From Blastobasis lacticolella (Eukaryota; Arthropoda; Insecta; Lepidoptera; Blastobasidae): DNA of 64,000 nt. Position 1 is the stretch's first letter. The number at the start of each line of letters is the position of its first letter. The stretch is taken from positions 496,001 through 560,000 of the forward strand of contig LR990055.1 of assembly GCA_905147135.1 (NCBI GenBank). The letters run 5' to 3'. The notes beneath the pieces are model-generated. The model saw nothing but the letters and a program-made list of their open reading frames with translations, searched no databases and was not told the DNA's origin. The translations under genes were made by a program, and so were the position numbers. Positions 20,346 to 28,142 of this stretch are shown here, in pieces.

Positions 20346-21299
20346 TGTAGGCCCGTTTCTTAAAGCTTTCAATTATACTAAAAACACATTTTAGCTGTTG
20401 CACTGATACTCGTAATAGTAGATTATGCAACTCGCATATAAAAAGAGATATAAAATAATTATAAAATATTTATCATACGAGGCGTAGCCCATAATGATAA
20501 AAAATTATTTTATCTAGCTCTCATAGCGAAATGTTCCAATTACATATTCGAAAACAGACGTTTAAAGATAAACTTTTTCACACAAAGCAACCTTTAACAC
20601 CAAAAAATACCAACATAACCCCATAACGACGGAACATTCTCCTGAACTCCCATTCTAGTGATTGAAACTAACGCGTTTAACCCCAGCAAACTCAATGAGC
20701 AGGGTTCATACCACGTAATCACGTTAGCTGATACCGCTCCCCGCGCGTAATAAATTAGGCACAAACTTAGATAAGACACCGGAGAGAGTGTGGCAGATTA
20801 AATTTTATTAATTTCAATCCAGCCACGACGCGGGACGCTTCGGAGCGCAACTAATTGTAGTAATGGCGGTAGTTTGATATTAATGTTTGGAGTGTTATGT
20901 TTTTAATTAAAGTAGAATTCATTTGTAAGCACGTCGAATGTTTTAATGACCCAATGGACAGAAAAAGTTGTATCCCTCGAGCAAGTTTATTTTATACTCT
21001 GAAATCGATTTTAATGAAACAAATGTCCATCATTATCAACAAATATTTATGTGTATAGCGTATAAGTGGATGTGTTATAAACAAATAATGACATACCCTC
21101 CGGCAAGTATGCATATACTTCATTACGATTTATGCAATAATGAAAAATTTTTGATACTAAACATTGCAGTGCAATAAACAGTGCTTATACTTTATAGGTC
21201 ATTTATGATGATGATGGTCAAATTAGGATGTTTCTCATACCTATACGGTGTCCACAAGCACCTACAACCCAGACTCAGTTGAGGTTACAGATTTATTAT
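20346..21299. other. No gene recognised, AT-rich
   Basis: Short ORFs only. AT content rises toward the right. An F2-like phrase (GACAGAAAAAGTTGTATCCC, TTTTAATGAAACAAA) lies at 20958-21020. Confidence 0.35.
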
Positions 21300-21868
21300 G
21301 TAACTATTCTATATTATGTCTTATTGTACCATGAGTACAGGTACCTACTATATACACAAAACAGTTTACGAAACTACAAGTTTACCAATACAACATAAAA
21401 TCATGATATAATATGAACAGTCTGGTCAATACTACCCTAATTATTAGATACTTAAATACATTTAATCCATTAGGCATTACATTTCAATCTTTCATCTAAA
21501 GCTGATTGTAATATGTATACTAAATTATAAATATGCCAGGAATATTACAATTACAATATTATAAGAAAGTCAACAATAAAATTAAATTTTAAATAACCTA
21601 ATTATAATTTTCATTTCATACATTAACATTAAATAACAATAAAAATATTCATTTTAGATTTCACAATGTCCCGCAATTTTTAAGTCCAAGGATTATTGTC
21701 TTGAATGTAATCATTTATTTTGTAATATGATTTTTATATCAACTTTTTCTTGATGCAAGACTTAAATTGGATGAAAGGTAAATTCTGAATCTCCTCTGGT
21801 AGCTTGTTAAAGAATGGGACACAATGGCCAACAAAGGAGAATTTAACCTTGGACAGTCGCAAGCGCAT
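21300..21868 (-). pseudogene. LINE-J4 C-terminus and 3' UTR
   Basis: Minus strand 21868 to about 21685 encodes LRLSKVK, GHCVPFFNKLPEEIQNLPF and, after one in-frame stop, YYKINDY, closely matching the LINE at 39.1-39.8 kb. The lower coordinates are its AT-rich 3' UTR; its exact limit is not seen. It marks host repeat DNA just left of the viral island. Confidence 0.7.
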
Positions 21869-21869
21869 C

Positions 21870-21945
21870 GACGATGCTACAGACAGACACAGATACACAC
21901 GTGAAACTTATACTTCCCTTTTTTCGTCGTGGGTTAAAAATAATT
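21870..21945 (-). repeat. Repeat F2 end
   Basis: GACAGACACAGATACACACGTGAAACTTATA and TTTTTTCGTCGTGGGTTAAAAA as degenerate family text is the end of F2 in minus orientation, as at 42030-42108. It is the last recognisable host repeat before the viral island. Confidence 0.65.
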
Positions 21946-21949
21946 CAGT

Positions 21950-23059
21950 AAACAGGAAAGTTTTCGATCTCGAAAGTTAGTGACTTATATAAATATATAT
22001 AAATATATGTGAAGCGAATTTAATTTTTGAATAAATTATTTACTATTTAGATATAAGTGTAAAACAATTTGCGAATAAAGATGATAGTGTATAGCTTTTT
22101 ACGATTAGAATTAAAATTGTGAACAGATGAGGCCCAATTATATTTAATATAAGGGAAAATATTCACAGAACAATAGCAGAGTAGGTAAAGAAAATAAAAA
22201 CTCGTTAAACCCGTATGAAGAGGGAATTTTTTGGGAAATGCAATATATGGGCACAAAATTATCCTTATCGACCGTAACATTTCAGATATAAATAATTTCT
22301 TCGTGTATCGATATTGTAACTTTATACCTAACTATAAGATAAAATAATTATAACTATAAAATAACGAATACTGGGAATTTCAAAGCGATAAGCCCATAAC
22401 CAATTGTTGATTGACGAATGTGTTCTTGATTAAATAAACAATTCTGGAATACCCAGTAATGAGCTCATGATGGTTAATTTCATTTACAATAAGTAATAAA
22501 GATATCGGCACTTGTTCACTTCAAATATCGTTGGTACCTACAAATTTGGATCGACAGTGTGCCTATTTTACTATCGGTCAACATTGACCTGTGAACTGGG
22601 TTTTTCCCAGAATATCACAATAATATTGCCAACGTTTAAAGAATAGCTATTACAGTATGATATAATATGGACCTATTTTACCTAGAGCTATGGTCACTAC
22701 AGGAAAAATAAAATTAATTATTCATACAATACCGTTTTCAAACCACGTCCCGAGCCACAACGACCAATTGTGAGTGAGTAATTTGGTCCTAGTAGCCCAA
22801 GATAAACTATAATGAACTATAAACTCTCCATTAGCTAAATACTTATCAGCTTTTAGGTTTATTATCGTCTTCCTATGTCAATTGCTATCAATTCATTTTA
22901 ATATTTTGAGTTGCAAGGATGATATTAAAAAGTGTGTAGAAGGAGGGAGTAATAAAAAATTATTAATATTTTAATTAAATAACTTTAATTTAAGGTAAAA
23001 CACTTATAATAATTATAAAAATCTCAATACTGAAAAACTAGTCTTAAAAATAAATTACA
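21950..23059. other. Left arm of viral island, no gene
   Basis: Very AT-rich with only short ORFs (longest 77 codons, minus 22047-22280, hydrophobic, unrecognised). The repeated ATATAAATATATATAAATATATG lies near 21990 (given here as pattern). It resembles bracovirus non-coding circle DNA in composition (inference). Confidence 0.4.
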
Positions 23060-23942
23060 TTATGAATACTTCGCTTTTTTAGAAGCTAATTTAACATATT
23101 CTAAAACTGTAAGATAACAAAATACATAATAAGTGGACAAAGATAAGCAGTTGTTTCTTTGCTTGCGGAGATCTCTTACTACTGTTGCTAGATCGATCGT
23201 CGAACTCTCATTGTATCTCGATATGCTGATGTCTAGAGCGCAGAAAGCTCCTGTGCGATTTAATCCAGCAGAGCAGTGGACCACCATAGAAGGAAAGTTG
23301 GAACTCTTGTTATCGAACTCCACATGTGCTTGAGCCTTTCTGACTTTGAGAACAAAGTTAAGAAAGTTTGATCGGCTTTGAGGCATGCTTTTATGAGGCC
23401 AATCGGTGTGTGAGGTCTAATGAGTCTCCACTGTCGTCTGTCATCCGTAGCTTGGTCACTATATGGTCACAAAAGGTCTTTACTTTCTTTGTTTCAATGA
23501 TGAAGTCACCGAACCACACTGTCCTTCCTTTCTTCGGGTTCCAGTACTGGTAACAGACTTCCTGTTCTTCTTCGTGTGTTTTTGTCAACATAACGATGAC
23601 TCTGGATTGATATCCAAACACCATTTTCCAAAAATCTTCGGCTGTTGACTGAAGTGGGCCCTGACAGCACAAATACTTGCCTCGAGTTTTGTACCCGTTG
23701 ACGTGATTGGCGTTGATATAGTCGCTTTCTCCGTTTTCTGCTGGTAAGATCACTCTGTTATGATCAAAACAAGGTAAAAACCAGTATCTATTTTTCAAAA
23801 TATTTTCTTCCTTCATCGATATGCTGCGACTGTACTCAACTTTTTCGTCTAATATTCTCCGTTGTTCTTGTTCGAGGATCTTGATTATTCTTTCTTCATT
23901 GCAACTAACGCCAGATTCTTTTTTCGTAGAAATCGCACCCAT
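23060..23942 (-). pseudogene. Bracovirus-type protein tyrosine phosphatase, frameshifted
   Basis: Classical cytosolic PTP of compact polydnavirus form. On insect cells such proteins are thought to target tyrosine-phosphorylated proteins of the host immune and developmental response. The ATG at 23942 opens 183 codons ending at 23391. They contain the KNRYWFLPCFDHNRV substrate-loop region (family form KNRY..), the SDYINANHVNGY motif, and the CQGPL.ST..DFW and QSRVIVML motifs. The second frame (stop at 23060) resumes with TDWPHKS (the WPD loop) and carries the signature HCSAGLNRTG with the catalytic Cys codon at 23273-23275, then the Q-loop region. A net +1 shift lies near 23404-23416, most simply a small deletion. 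Total length fits the usual 300 or so residues. The general-acid Asp of WPD is His. No intron is evident, as usual for these genes. Confidence 0.9.
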
Positions 23943-23982
23943 TTTAAAAAATATATTTTCACAGGATGAGAGTCCTTGTTTC

Positions 23983-24015
23983 GACTGAAGATCAGTATCG
24001 AATGAAAATATTATA
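23983..24015 (-). promoter_or_regulatory. TATA/Inr core promoter of the PTP
   Basis: On the minus strand TATAATA (24015-24009) precedes CTTCAGTC (23990-23983), an arthropod-type initiator whose A (23986) is 29 bp downstream of the first T of the TATA box. This gives a 5' UTR of about 44 nt before the ATG at 23942. A second TATAAAT at 24035-24029 is only about 18 bp from another TCAGT, less well spaced. Confidence 0.5.
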
Positions 24016-24785
24016 CTGATCGTGACACATTTATACTAATGAATTTCAGCATTAATATTAACTTTTTCCTCCCTGAATGAACAATTTAACCAATATGACG
24101 CACGAGGTTTCAGTCTATTGAGTTTGATATTTATTTCAACATCATTAAAAATTAATTTTATCTATAAAAATTCCCATGTGGTTAATTAACAAGCCAATCA
24201 GTGAGTTCAAATGTTATCATGAACTTCTTTTCCTTTAAAAACCTTACAAATTGCAATTAAAACCCTTTATTTGGAGTTTAGGAAACTAAAGCGATGATAT
24301 GGAGCATCATGTTTCAGTATATGAAATTAACAATTTCTTATATTATTTAACATTACTAATTTTCAAGTATTACTTCCTCTACAGGAAGTGAATCACGATA
24401 ATGTAGTTAACTTTAGGCAGTCAAAGGACCAATATAAATAGGATTTCTCTATGAATTGTATCATAACTTTATTTTTGATTGTACGAACAGTACCTTTGAT
24501 TTTTTTTCTGATTTTTGAAAGAAAAATTTAAAGAGAAAGGGTGTAATTGTATCGAAAGCTCTGAAAAAGGTAAGACAGGTGAACAAAGACTCTATCAGCC
24601 AAGCAGAGAATTATGTTTTTTGTTACAACGTATGACATAAATTCGTTATAAACAATATGAAGTAATGTAGATTGGTAACGTCCCATATGGAGCACGCGGT
24701 AATTCAGACGGCGATAACATTTAACCTATGGGAAAACCCGCGATAGAAACTATTTTTGTTTATGAATCCCTCTATATCAGCCGAC
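24016..24785. other. Intergenic region between divergent viral genes
   Basis: About 0.77 kb of AT-rich DNA between the two promoters. It includes ACTTCCTCTACAGGAAGT (24370-24387), a palindromic ETS-like GGAA motif pair, and a less AT-rich patch (24680-24745). No ORF of note. Confidence 0.35.
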
Positions 24786-24820
24786 TATATAAGAGTCTTC
24801 CAGTAGGAAGCACTATTATT
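24786..24820 (+). promoter_or_regulatory. TATA-type promoter of the vankyrin gene
   Basis: TATATAAG at 24786-24793 is a strong TATA box. Expected transcription start is about 24812-24817 (GCACTATT), leaving a 5' UTR of about 50 nt before the ATG at 24864. An additional TTCAG lies at 24825-24829. Confidence 0.55.
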
Positions 24821-24863
24821 GCGATTCAGGACTTCAAGAAGTGACATCTTACTCTCTCTAAAA

Positions 24864-25397
24864 ATGGATTCTGATAATTTAAACGACACATTCGGTCCAG
24901 ATCCTACAAGCAGAAACTATACGATATTCCATTTGATTGCTAAATCTGACTGTCACGATATTTTGGATAGAATATATAACCATTCTGGAGATAAAGACTT
25001 TCAGCACATACTAAAACTCAAGGATGACGACGGAAACACGTGTCTCCATACTGTCGTAAGGTGCCGAAGTGGAAGTGATGCTGACGATATGATATCGTTG
25101 ATGGTAGCTATGGGAGCAGACTTGAATGCCCAGGATAATGCAGGAGACACTGTTTTGCATAAAGCAGTGAAAAAGGGGGACCACGAGCTGGTAGAAGGAT
25201 TAGTAGAGATACACGCCGATAAAGACATTAATAATGAAGATGGATTGACGGCTTATCAAATTGCTGAGCAAAACAATGATGAAGAAATAATGAAGATGCT
25301 TATAATAAAGATTGAAGAAAATAATAGTTCTGGAGGTTCAGTAAGCTCATTTAACTTAAGTGAAATTCTAGGTTTTCTATCAAATTCAACAGATTAA
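24864..25397 (+). CDS. Vankyrin (bracovirus ankyrin-repeat protein), intact
   Basis: A 177-residue ankyrin-repeat protein resembling the I-kappa-B ankyrin domain. Polydnavirus vankyrins lack the N-terminal degradation signals and C-terminal PEST region of I-kappa-B and are known to bind NF-kappa-B factors and damp the insect immune response. Visible repeats: residues about 18-50 (YTIFHLIAKSD...), 55-91 (DDGNTCLHTVV ... GADLNAQDN), 92-124 (AGDTVLHKAVKKGDHELVEGL) and 125-150 (DGLTAYQIAEQNN). The tail is short, acidic and Ser/Asn-rich, with no signal peptide or membrane segment. The frame is open 15 codons upstream, but the first ATG is at 24864 and sits correctly behind the TATA box. Length is normal for the family and no stop or frameshift is seen, in contrast to both PTPs nearby. 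AATAAA follows 87 nt after the stop. Intactness is consistent with recent arrival or retained function. Confidence 0.9.
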   Translation: MDSDNLNDTFGPDPTSRNYTIFHLIAKSDCHDILDRIYNHSGDKDFQHILKLKDDDGNTCLHTVVRCRSGSDADDMISLMVAMGADLNAQDNAGDTVLHKAVKKGDHELVEGLVEIHADKDINNEDGLTAYQIAEQNNDEEIMKMLIIKIEENNSSGGSVSSFNLSEILGFLSNSTD

Positions 25398-25483
25398 CTA
25401 CTTTTATTTTTGCTTTTGAATTGTGCAAGCTTTGATTTTATAAGCCATAGTTTTTAAGTGTTTTATTAAATAGGTAAATTTAA

Positions 25484-25489
25484 AATAAA
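25484..25489 (+). terminator. Polyadenylation signal of vankyrin
   Basis: Canonical AATAAA 87 nt downstream of the stop codon, followed by a T-rich stretch. Another AATAAA-like site lies near 25734. Confidence 0.5.
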
Positions 25490-25800
25490 GGTAATTTTAT
25501 TTCAAATTAGCAATAGGTTCTGTTACAACTAATTTATTCTATAAGTATTTTATTTAAATAATCTCTCAGTCGTTTGCGTCAATGTTAGTCTATTTTTTGA
25601 AGTCACATTATTAAAAGTATATCAGGAAAATGTACGGCAATGTGTAACAATGTCATGAGTCAAATTTAACTGTACAATATTTAAAGATATGGTTAACATG
25701 TGGTTTTGCTGACGTAATTACATAAAAATACAATAAAATTTGCTACATTTTGTGAGCCTTAACTGATATATTTTACACGTTTGTTTTTGCATTGACAAAT
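25490..25800. other. Vankyrin 3' flank, no gene
   Basis: AT-rich. Ends with TTACACGTTTGTTTTTGCATTGAC (pattern at 25772-25795), whose first part recurs in the spacer of the adjoining palindrome (ACACGTTTGTTTT at 26088-26100). Confidence 0.4.
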
Positions 25801-26396
25801 AAATTGCAGTGACAATTCCTATCAAAAGTACCCTGAATCATAGTTACGGGTTGGTTTCCCTCAGTGTTCGTTGATAAGAACTTTAGGTACTGGTTAACCA
25901 AATGACATCCGTTTATGCCCACGCAAAATTTATACAGATACATTTATAAGGGTAAAAGATTGTAATCATTTAAAACTTATACATTCTAATTACAATTATC
26001 ATATTACTTCAGTACAATATTGGATCAGTTTTTATTACAGAGGCACATTTAAGAATTTAATTACTTTCTAAACTTTATGAAATAATTACACGTTTGTTTT
26101 GTCACTGCAAATTATTTCATAAAGTTTAGAAAGTAATTAAATTCTTAAATGTGCCTCTGTAATAAAAACTGATCCAATATTGTACTGAAGTAATATGATA
26201 ATTGTAATTAGAATGTATAAGTTTTAAATGATTACAATCTTTTACCCTTATAAATGTATCTGTATAAATTTTGCGTGGGCATAAACGGATGTCATTTGGT
26301 TAACCAGTACCTAAAGTTCTTATCAACGAACACTGAGGGAAACCAACCCGTAACTATGATTCAGGGTACTTTTGATAGGAATTGTCACTGCAATTT
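25801..26396. repeat. Perfect long palindrome, 287-bp arms, 22-bp spacer
   Basis: The left arm 25801-26087 is the exact reverse complement of the right arm 26110-26396 at every segment I compared, and both arms are the same length. The spacer 26088-26109 is ACACGTTTGTTTTGTCACTGCA. The arms have no ORF. Spacer parts recur nearby: ACACGTTTGTTTT just left of the palindrome and GTCACTGCAA as the palindrome's own end (TTGTCACTGCAATTT). This looks like an inverted duplication with reused junction sequence, or a fold-back element. Perfect arms imply great youth, gene conversion or an assembly artefact. Confidence 0.85.
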
Positions 26397-26641
26397 TCTC
26401 AAAATAAAACGATGCGCATGTCTCTCGTTTTAGGTCTTTGAAAAAATAAAAACAGGGTTACATATTAAATCCTTAATTTCATTAGGTGATTAAAAATATT
26501 TTTTACAAATTCCTTACATAACTTTGGTATCTTTAGTTTATTTATAAAATACAATCACACTAGAAATTACATAAATCTTATACTAACTTATCTTATGACT
26601 GAATTTATTCTAAAAAAATATTAATAATAATATGCATGTAA

Positions 26642-27004
26642 AAAAATAATAAGCAGCACCAAGAATTTTTCTTCGAAGTATTGACTACCGGGCAATCATC
26701 GATAGGCCCAATTGTTGTCCATGGAATGGCAGGTGTGGGAAGAACTGCAACTTTTTGTGCTGCAGATTGCTGCTTGTATCAACTAGTAAAAACAGCAACC
26801 ATATCAATACCATCAGTCGTGATAAGTATAAGGATGCAGAGATATTTCAGTTTTTTATCTAAAATCCAATATCTTTTTCTAAATTATGTTTTACTTAACT
26901 TTTTAAGTACTATTCGATCTCACAATGAAATGTTCTTAGAACTACGTTTACATTTTACGGGCAAAGACACATACTTAATGAATCTTCAAATTAAACAAAT
27001 TTAG
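26642..27004 (+). pseudogene. C-terminal fragment of a second bracovirus-type PTP
   Basis: The open frame begins right after a stop at 26639-26641 without an ATG, and homology starts at about 26660. It contains IGPIVVHGMAGVGRTATFCA (the PTP signature region), CLYQLVKTATISIPSVV, then a hydrophobic YLFLNYVLLNFLS end, the normal C-terminal layout of bracovirus PTPs. The catalytic Cys of the HCxxGxxRTG signature is Gly (codon 26723-26725) and the Gly after RT is Ala, so it cannot act as a phosphatase by the standard mechanism. About two thirds of the protein is missing at the N-terminus. It differs clearly from the PTP at 23.1 kb, so it is a paralogue, not a duplicate. Confidence 0.85.
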
Positions 27005-27929
27005 TTAATAAAAAAATTCATGTTTTGTTTATTTTAAGTTTACAATAAATATTTTTTTCTGTTTAGATTATTTTATTATTTTTTATTTAACTGTCAAACG
27101 TGATAGTTCCTCCAAATCACTTAGAGCTAACACACATATGAGTAATTAAATTTTTCAAGGATTCTTTGTTCGTAAAAAATGCAAATACGCTCAATATTTC
27201 ATCACTAAATATCAAAAATTTATTTAATACACAACCAGAAGATCACTATTAAAAAAATTAAAATTTTGAGTTAAAATACTATAGATAAAGGTCACAAATC
27301 AATAGTCATAATTTCCGTGAGCCCTTAGTTCAAACATGATATCAATTTTAAAAAACTACAGCAGGAAAAAGACTTTACTAACTTATAAATAGTTCCATTT
27401 ACAAGATCTTATTAGTGAGCAACCGACTGGAGTCAAAAGAAATAAGATTTGACCTGAGCCTGATCCCAGCATTGAAAAACCCGAATGTTAAATAATAGGA
27501 AGATAAAAATATTACTAAGCGGCAAATATCTTGAGGAAATAAGGTTCCAAAAAGAATCACTTTGTAGGGTTTTGAACGTGCTGAATGACACACAATTTTG
27601 CAGTTAAAAAAAAATTTCTTTAAATTTACAAATTTAATTGGTTTGAAATTTTAACTTTCAACATCGAAATTATCCCTGTTAAGTCAATTTCAATGTCAAG
27701 CTTCTTCACATTCATATTAAATTACCCATTAACTCCAAAAACATCTGACACTGCTCACAAGAAAGAATTCGACACCAAGAACTTTTTATTAAAGAAAGTG
27801 TCCGTTTGCCCGGATTTGGGGTAACTAGTTTGCGACAAATCACTGAGCAAGTTCACCCGACGCGAGGTGATGAAATCCGACCACTTTCACAGCGGGCGCA
27901 ATATACAGTAGTTTAAGTCCAGACTCTTT
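27005..27929. other. Right part of viral island and its edge
   Basis: AT-rich to about 27720 with no recognised gene; a 64-codon minus ORF at 27399-27593 is unassigned. From about 27790 the sequence becomes GC-richer (CCGTTTGCCCGGATTTGGGG, CCCGACGCGAGG) and looks like host DNA. The viral/host junction is probably between 27700 and 27850. Confidence 0.4.
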
Positions 27930-28142
27930 CTTTTTTTTATTATTTGACTAGCCAGGCATTAGACCACCACCTCACCTCGCGCTAAGTGACGATGCGGCCG
28001 ATGATGGAGCATGCCTGTCTAGGAACAGCCTACTCACTCTGGCCTTGAAGGCGTCTAGATTATAATGATCAGAGAACACACTCGCGGGTAATGCATTCCA
28101 TTCCTTGGCTGTACGTATTATAAAGGTTGAACTAAAGCGGCT
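27930..28142 (-). pseudogene. LINE-J2 RT C-terminus and 3' end
   Basis: Minus strand from 28142 encodes FIIRTAKEWNALPASVFSDH and then FKARVSRLFLDRHAPSS, the C-terminus of a Jockey/CR1-like reverse transcriptase, followed by a stop and an A-rich end (T run at 27930-27938). It is 5'-truncated. Related copies: 32255-32440 and 55265-55430. Confidence 0.75.

Follow-up and report, generated by a model that had tools for sequence, protein, structure and literature searches.

A 64,000-nt stretch of the moth Blastobasis lacticolella (LR990055.1, 496,001-560,000; G000:C16:496001-560000 in our analysis, called the window here, with positions counted along it) contains one insertion of a multi-copy family of bracovirus type, which has fixed inverted ends and a 3-bp target-site duplication. 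Between 21,952 and 27,679 the insertion carries a frameshifted bracovirus-type protein tyrosine phosphatase (PTP) gene, an intact vankyrin and the remnant of a second bracovirus PTP. The original prediction described the island as a single old integration of a wasp-virus circle; it instead belongs to a family represented by dozens of near-identical copies in the assembly (577 Mb, 45 contigs). A bracovirus circle may here have become a self-spreading moth repeat, with the host integration motif (HIM) as transposon terminus, a 3-bp stagger made by a DDE-type enzyme, and virulence genes multiplied in the caterpillar germline. We regard this full reading as evenly poised between right and wrong.

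The footprint of insertion is uniform. Among 21 copies examined (15 of family A, the window's included, five of family B and one long version), both ends were seen in 20; L046/L036 was omitted from the duplication count, its right end lying outside the examined DNA. An identical 3-mer stands directly outside ACAGG...CCTGT in all 20, and agreement over 4 bp occurs in none. The 3-mer is TAA in 8 of the 20, the others being CAA, GGA, TCC, AAA, TGA, ACA, ATA, TAT, GTA and TTA. Mismatched pairings of the ends of the first 17 copies agree in 34 of 272 cases. Comparison of eleven left flanks gave one alike pair, 37 kb apart on contig C17 and with only one member within the 20; this pair shares a 73-nt repeat with L051, and the remaining left flanks are unrelated. 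The C17 pair itself (L046 and L047, at G000:C17:3.243 and 3.280 Mb), with left flanks 96% identical, is a segmental duplication that includes the insertion. For the window copy, joining the host flanks in search of the empty site gave no junction-spanning place within the window.

A duplication of constant 3-bp length implies that the target was cut with a stagger, in the manner of transposase- or integrase-like enzymes, and the footprint favours a DDE-type enzyme over a tyrosine recombinase. The term 'target site' does not occur in the main texts of PMC8549517 and PMC8460044, which like the other papers cited by accession were available in part. Terminal inverted repeats, a duplication of constant length, and dispersed copies of differing length with the same ends are all present, as in a non-autonomous DNA transposon.

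With up to 2 mismatches allowed, the left-end pattern matched at 104 places in the assembly (66 forward, 38 reverse), and its read-backwards control at none. Among the 100 places listed, at least 85 are exact (42 of the window type and 43 of the family B/C type), on 27 contigs. A genome search with the vankyrin, in which 150 of 394 candidates were scored, returned at least 33 full-length copies at 95% identity or more (window's included) on 18 contigs, none with a stop, and at least about 40 at 46-49% that represent family B. In the search for the PTP family (150 of 962 candidates scored), eight of the matches listed have stops, and the first two matches look like host receptor-type PTPs. The 14 best vankyrin matches after the window serve here as sister copies, so their low vankyrin variation is partly ascertainment. 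Their best alignment blocks are 98.5-100% identical mutually and 97.5-98.3% identical to the window; outside the vankyrin the sisters differ by 0.00-0.93%, and the window copy by 1.63-1.94%. With 89 columns misaligned at a deletion edge left out, 38 of 48 variable positions in five kept regions are singletons, or ~0.1% per copy. At a moth mutation rate near 3e-9 per generation, this would correspond to roughly some hundred thousands of generations.

Family B keeps the same arrangement. Its copy at C10:7,928,378-7,935,252 (6.9 kb) encodes PTP1 (-, 294 aa), vankyrin (+, 157 aa) and PTP2 (+, 318 aa), an order common to it and the window copy, together with a second ankyrin-like open reading frame (ORF; +, 151 aa). 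Blocks at four more family B sites are 99.5-99.9% identical to this copy, and other family B loci have two tandem PTP2 copies. A 14.9-kb version (C13:1,838,619-1,853,492) holds extra ORFs of PTP and ankyrin type, and elements of 14.9, 6.9 and 5.7 kb all share one set of ends. Related genes occur elsewhere in the assembly: a tandem PTP array at G000:C8:16,525,530-16,564,070, spaced at ~1.4 kb and multiples of it and with open frames of 343 aa, is a local amplification that looks like the PTP2 type of family B. Further ankyrin ORFs on C8 (which has many of them), C2, C11 and other contigs share 29-36% identity with the vankyrin, are in many cases 181-226 aa long and possibly belong to more circle families.

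The termini resemble the site at which wasp-virus circles join host DNA. In the bracovirus CvBV, the HIM consists of two inverted sites with an 8-nt and a 5-nt box (PMC8460044). The ends of the insertion form a 29-nt inverted repeat matched at 23 of 29 positions, a score reached by 0 of 1000 shuffles, and contain HIM-like boxes matched at 7/8 and 4/5. The 16-nt spacing of the boxes was derived from these ends themselves; 5 sites in the window fit with 2 mismatches, two of them being the ends. The terminal inverted repeats are weaker in family B.

At 142 nt from the left end there is an AGCT, and the 29 nt after it are the same in families A and B. A 60-nt segment over this AGCT has the highest conservation (97%) among 2,833 non-coding segments compared in the window copy and a single family B copy, and three non-coding regions compared between A and B average 55-70% identity. 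An AGCT-containing junction, the wasp integration motif (WIM) or direct repeat junction (DRJ), lies 128-472 nt from the HIM in 16 of 19 CvBV circles (Table 1 of PMC8460044), and in MdBV 31 nt are conserved after the AGCT (PMC4169385). We name the block DRJ/WIM by position and conservation, not by a match to a known DRJ, and the island holds 15 AGCT in total. IMG/VR contained no relative for single-protein queries or for the AGCT block, and five ankyrin loci at 29-38% turned up there with a less strict vankyrin profile. Judged by its sequence, the insertion has the parts that an integrated bracovirus circle would be expected to have: bracovirus virulence genes, ends at the two HIM halves and one internal AGCT DRJ/WIM.

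The PTP genes also point to a bracovirus. PTP1 consists of two PF00102 pieces in different frames, 23391-23942(-) with E 2.8e-38 and 23060-23386(-) with E 3e-19. The closest proteins found for these pieces are the Cydia pomonella PTPs P0006 (80-83%) and P0003 (74-75%), followed among named relatives by Glyptapanteles and Cotesia PTPs, which are 44-67% identical to the two pieces, and by one stick-insect record; cellular PTPs among the matches listed are ~27-41% identical to P0003. The leader upstream of the PTP1 start (23942-24035) is kept in frame in the N-terminus of P0006, which suggests nucleotide homology beyond the gene. The second PTP remnant (PF00102, E 9.8e-15 in 26681-27001(+)) is nearest to another bracovirus PTP group, at 57% to Cotesia glomerata and 50% to Glyptapanteles.

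Separate trees were built from the N piece (28 rows) and C piece (24 rows) of PTP1, with six cellular PTPs included, and both set the bracovirus-plus-moth PTPs apart from the cellular ones at 100/99. The window PTP1 groups with the Cydia copies at 94/92 and 92/92, under the tool's threshold for a firm fork, and Euphydryas PTPs (both trees) and Colias PTPs (N tree) lie inside the Cotesia clade. Because the tree forces several changes of moth label, moths have probably acquired bracovirus-type PTP genes repeatedly. The Euphydryas editha and Colias eurytheme PTPs (P0013, P0014, P0061) in the Cotesia bracovirus clade are probably separate transfers into butterflies. The stick-insect record, P0007, is a bracovirus-type PTP on a 54-Mb contig of Bacillus rossius, 57% identical to the Cydia one, and its neighbour in the tree is the Glyptapanteles group. 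The bracovirus origin first proposed for the island is upheld by the PTP phylogeny, the HIM-like ends and the AGCT block.

Banchine wasps attack leaf-roller moths, and their virus also carries PTP and vankyrin families. An origin from such an ichnovirus would suit the vankyrin, whose viral matches begin with ichnovirus proteins. Glypta ichnovirus carries PTPs (PMC3573978), and the earlier statement that PTP and vankyrin together define bracovirus circles was too strong. In a viral structure library, however, banchine PTPs match P0003 at 12-27%, far from the window's, and bracovirus PTPs at 18-44%; the model used was of low confidence (pLDDT 48), and only the identities of its matches are considered. 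The similarity of the PTP1 pieces to Cotesia and Glyptapanteles proteins, the PTP tree and the AGCT junction block also stand against an ichnovirus. We rejected an ichnovirus donor on the PTP identities and tree, though the vankyrin alone favours one, and consider such an origin exceedingly improbable.

Families A and B appear to be older than their presence in the moth. Between them the ratio of non-synonymous to synonymous substitution (dN/dS) is 0.28 in the N part of PTP1, where dS is 0.44, and 0.22 in the vankyrin, where dS is 1.8, which indicates purifying selection on both genes. The AGCT junction has no role in host integration (PMC8460044); since it works in the wasp, A and B most likely diverged there. 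Throughout this divergence the genes and the AGCT block were conserved, and the circles would therefore have evolved first in the wasp virus. These comparisons strongly support a divergence of A and B while they were still virulence circles of a wasp bracovirus.

We suggest that circles which had diverged as A and B in the wasp bracovirus were linearised at the HIM and joined to moth chromosomes via a staggered 3-bp cut. After a few germline entries, the integrated copies may then have been moved within the moth germline by an enzyme acting in trans, which would have yielded dozens of copies with the PTP and vankyrin genes as cargo. This last step is the least certain. Up to it, we consider the chain highly probable; with amplification inside the moth germline included, we lean towards it. 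Copies L028 (C21) and L033 (C17) are informative in this respect: they lie in unrelated DNA with different duplications (TCC and TAA), share one premature PTP1 stop and show 0 differences in up to 1,964 compared columns. The PTP1 frames of the window copy and L031 (C4) end in the same five residues, and L027 has a stop of its own. The recurrence of a broken variant at separate sites and the existence of length variants speak for movement inside the moth, which we modestly favour over repeated delivery by wasps.

In the alternative scenario, every copy arose from its own germline integration, via the HIM, of a circle delivered by a wasp, in one or a few massive episodes in caterpillars that survived parasitism, and nothing moves in the moth. 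The HIM-like layout of the ends and the intact genes of most copies agree with it, as do the 12-85 integrations per haploid genome found in parasitised host tissues (PMC8549517) and the presence of 31 of 33 PTP and 5 of 5 vankyrin genes of CvBV on HIM circles (PMC8460044). It would, however, require about a hundred germline events in one lineage, and it is poorly matched by the recurrence of a broken variant at unrelated sites and by different lengths with the same ends. We view it as a possible but distinctly less likely history.

Several points count against the history with amplification in the moth. No transposase was found in the element, and no search for one was made there or genome-wide; none was noticed among the element's ORFs (those of at least 90 aa in the 14.9-kb version), for which no domain search was made. 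Direct integration of circles could yield the same ends and perhaps the same duplication, and broken circle variants could also exist in the wasp. Within the island, 2 of 802 interior pairs reach the inverted-repeat score of the ends, and the DNA lost between the two HIM halves is not visible. For the vankyrin, an ichnovirus protein (34%) heads the viral structure matches; the first match from a named bracovirus ranks 9th at 27%, and another 20th at 33%.

An artefact, in the form of wasp contamination, a wasp genome taken for a moth's or somatic integrations in a parasitised specimen, would be conceivable in that the identity of the moth rests on kinship with Cydia and on chromosome-sized contigs, with lengths of 15-35 Mb for some 14 of them. 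Against this, the copies are spread over 27 contigs, those examined lie in different DNA and each has its own duplication, and the closest proteins come from Cydia pomonella, on contigs of 0.5-38 Mb. A consensus assembly would also hardly hold dozens of somatic events. We consider an artefact very unlikely.

The vankyrin might suggest domestication, that is, one old integration that decayed except for a useful gene. Its 177-aa frame is intact next to a broken PTP, exceeds the 156 codons of the longest frame without a stop among 300 versions of the island generated by a Markov model, and has its closest relative, at 78%, in Cydia pomonella; the literature search found no paper on 'vankyrin' together with Cydia. 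Yet all 33 copies at 95% identity or more are intact, and the 104 left ends refute a single integration. Relative to the 14 sisters, which were picked by vankyrin similarity, the window vankyrin has 1 synonymous and 5-6 non-synonymous changes, and the sisters have zero synonymous differences among themselves; there is no sign of purifying selection between window and sisters. The proposal that one gene was kept while the others decayed is not supported, and we consider domestication of a lone integration extremely improbable.

The window copy has a history of its own. At 14 of 14 sister loci, 25,479 or 25,480 is joined to 26,195, directly or with ~10 nt between. The window copy has a perfect 287-nt inverted repeat (25801-26087 and 26110-26396) that had gone unmentioned before. 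We considered this repeat as a HIM or a miniature inverted-repeat transposable element and rejected both, as 14 of 14 sisters are without the duplication. A transcript of 25801-26396 would form a long hairpin and could feed small-RNA silencing. The segment 26,633-26,805 is also present in the window copy only (0 of 14 sisters); 13 of the 14 resume at 26,806, and L036 is without the remainder. A second PTP is present as predicted, reduced to a C-terminal part with Gly at the position of the catalytic cysteine. Its presumed decay after integration is contradicted by a truncation that the sisters share, none of them having 26,633-26,805. The window copy is probably an older, partly broken member of the family.

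The description of the island itself was largely accurate. PF00102 matches and the intact ankyrin-repeat ORF confirm the PTP, the vankyrin and a second, different PTP remnant, and all three can be read without any intron. The expected AT-richness is evident, with GC of 0.285-0.319 in six of seven 1-kb windows of 21,001-28,000 (0.383 in the PTP window) vs 0.337-0.502 in the remaining 57. The island lies in chromosomal DNA among repeats, as proposed: host repeats with copies elsewhere in the window extend to 21,943 and restart at 27,928, and a reverse-transcriptase ORF (PF00078) lies to the right. Of the predicted extent (21950-27800), the left limit was close to correct (21,952), and the right one lay ~120 nt beyond the true end. 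Scans of the window for tRNAs and Rfam families were empty.

Table 1. Features of the insertion and its borders (window positions).
Feature	Position	Strand	Details	Basis
Insertion, bracovirus circle-derived element, family A	21952..27679	+	ACAGG...CCTGT; 5,728 bp	Ends common to sister copies; host repeats stop at 21,943
Left copy of 3-bp target-site duplication	21949..21951		TAA	Identical 3-mers flank 20/20 two-ended copies
Right copy of 3-bp target-site duplication	27680..27682		TAA	Identical 3-mers flank 20/20 two-ended copies
Left inverted terminus, HIM J-like	21952..21979	+	GAAAGTTA box 7/8; border box 4/5, first base inside duplication	Boxes from PMC8460044
Right inverted terminus, HIM J-like	27652..27679	-		Inverted-end comparison, sister copies
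Putative DRJ/WIM (wasp circle junction site)	22066..22125	+	AGCT at 22,093-22,096	60-nt conservation, 142 nt from end, CvBV distances
PTP1, bracovirus protein tyrosine phosphatase	23060..23942	-	Frameshift ~23,406-23,413	Pfam PF00102, identities, trees
TATA-like promoter region and vankyrin leader (putative)	24784..24860	+		Read from the sequence
Vankyrin, ankyrin-repeat protein	24864..25397	+	177 aa, intact	ORF and domain match, protein relatives, genome copies
Stretch private to window copy among 15 compared	25480..26194		Inverted duplication inside: left arm 25801-26087, loop 26088-26109, start of right arm
Second bracovirus PTP remnant	26645..26953	+	C-terminal part only	PF00102 match, protein identities

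From the perspective of integration mechanisms, copies with two ends give a target-site footprint that is beyond the reach of single-junction reads, and the constant 3-bp duplication argues for a staggered-cut enzyme in the joining of circle and chromosome. Candidates for this joining are viral tyrosine recombinases, according to PMC8549517, with host retroviral integrases as a further possibility in PMC8460044. If copies also move in the moth, gene transfer from wasp to moth would be amplified, and the host genome would accumulate immune-suppressing genes. A 2023 study reportedly describes germline transfers through the HIM in more than a hundred species of moths and may treat copy number. 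None of the titles found in a literature search that was not aimed at these subjects concerned amplified copies or target-site duplications, and we make no claim that either is unpublished.

CACTA- or Harbinger-like non-autonomous DNA transposons make 3-bp target-site duplications. The family resembles them in its short inverted ends, constant 3-bp duplication, length variants and dispersed copies, a likeness drawn without comparing the ends to a transposon library, and differs in its bracovirus cargo and AGCT block. Bracovirus insertions in Lepidoptera have already been published (PMC4574769, PMC4190172, PMC5704228). Like those in Danaus, Spodoptera and Bombyx (PMC4574769, PMC4190172), one of which kept a DRJ, the insertion places wasp-virus genes within moth DNA. 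Complete circles were not found according to the available part of PMC4574769, whereas the present element, with its dozens of copies, retains its two ends, the AGCT block and the order of the genes. There is also a likeness in layout to the HIM-integrated circles of MdBV, CcBV, CvBV and CtBV, with PTP and vankyrin cargo, inverted-repeat ends and an AGCT near one end; unlike these, the family is present as dozens of near-identical copies in the assembly, with a uniform 3-bp duplication.

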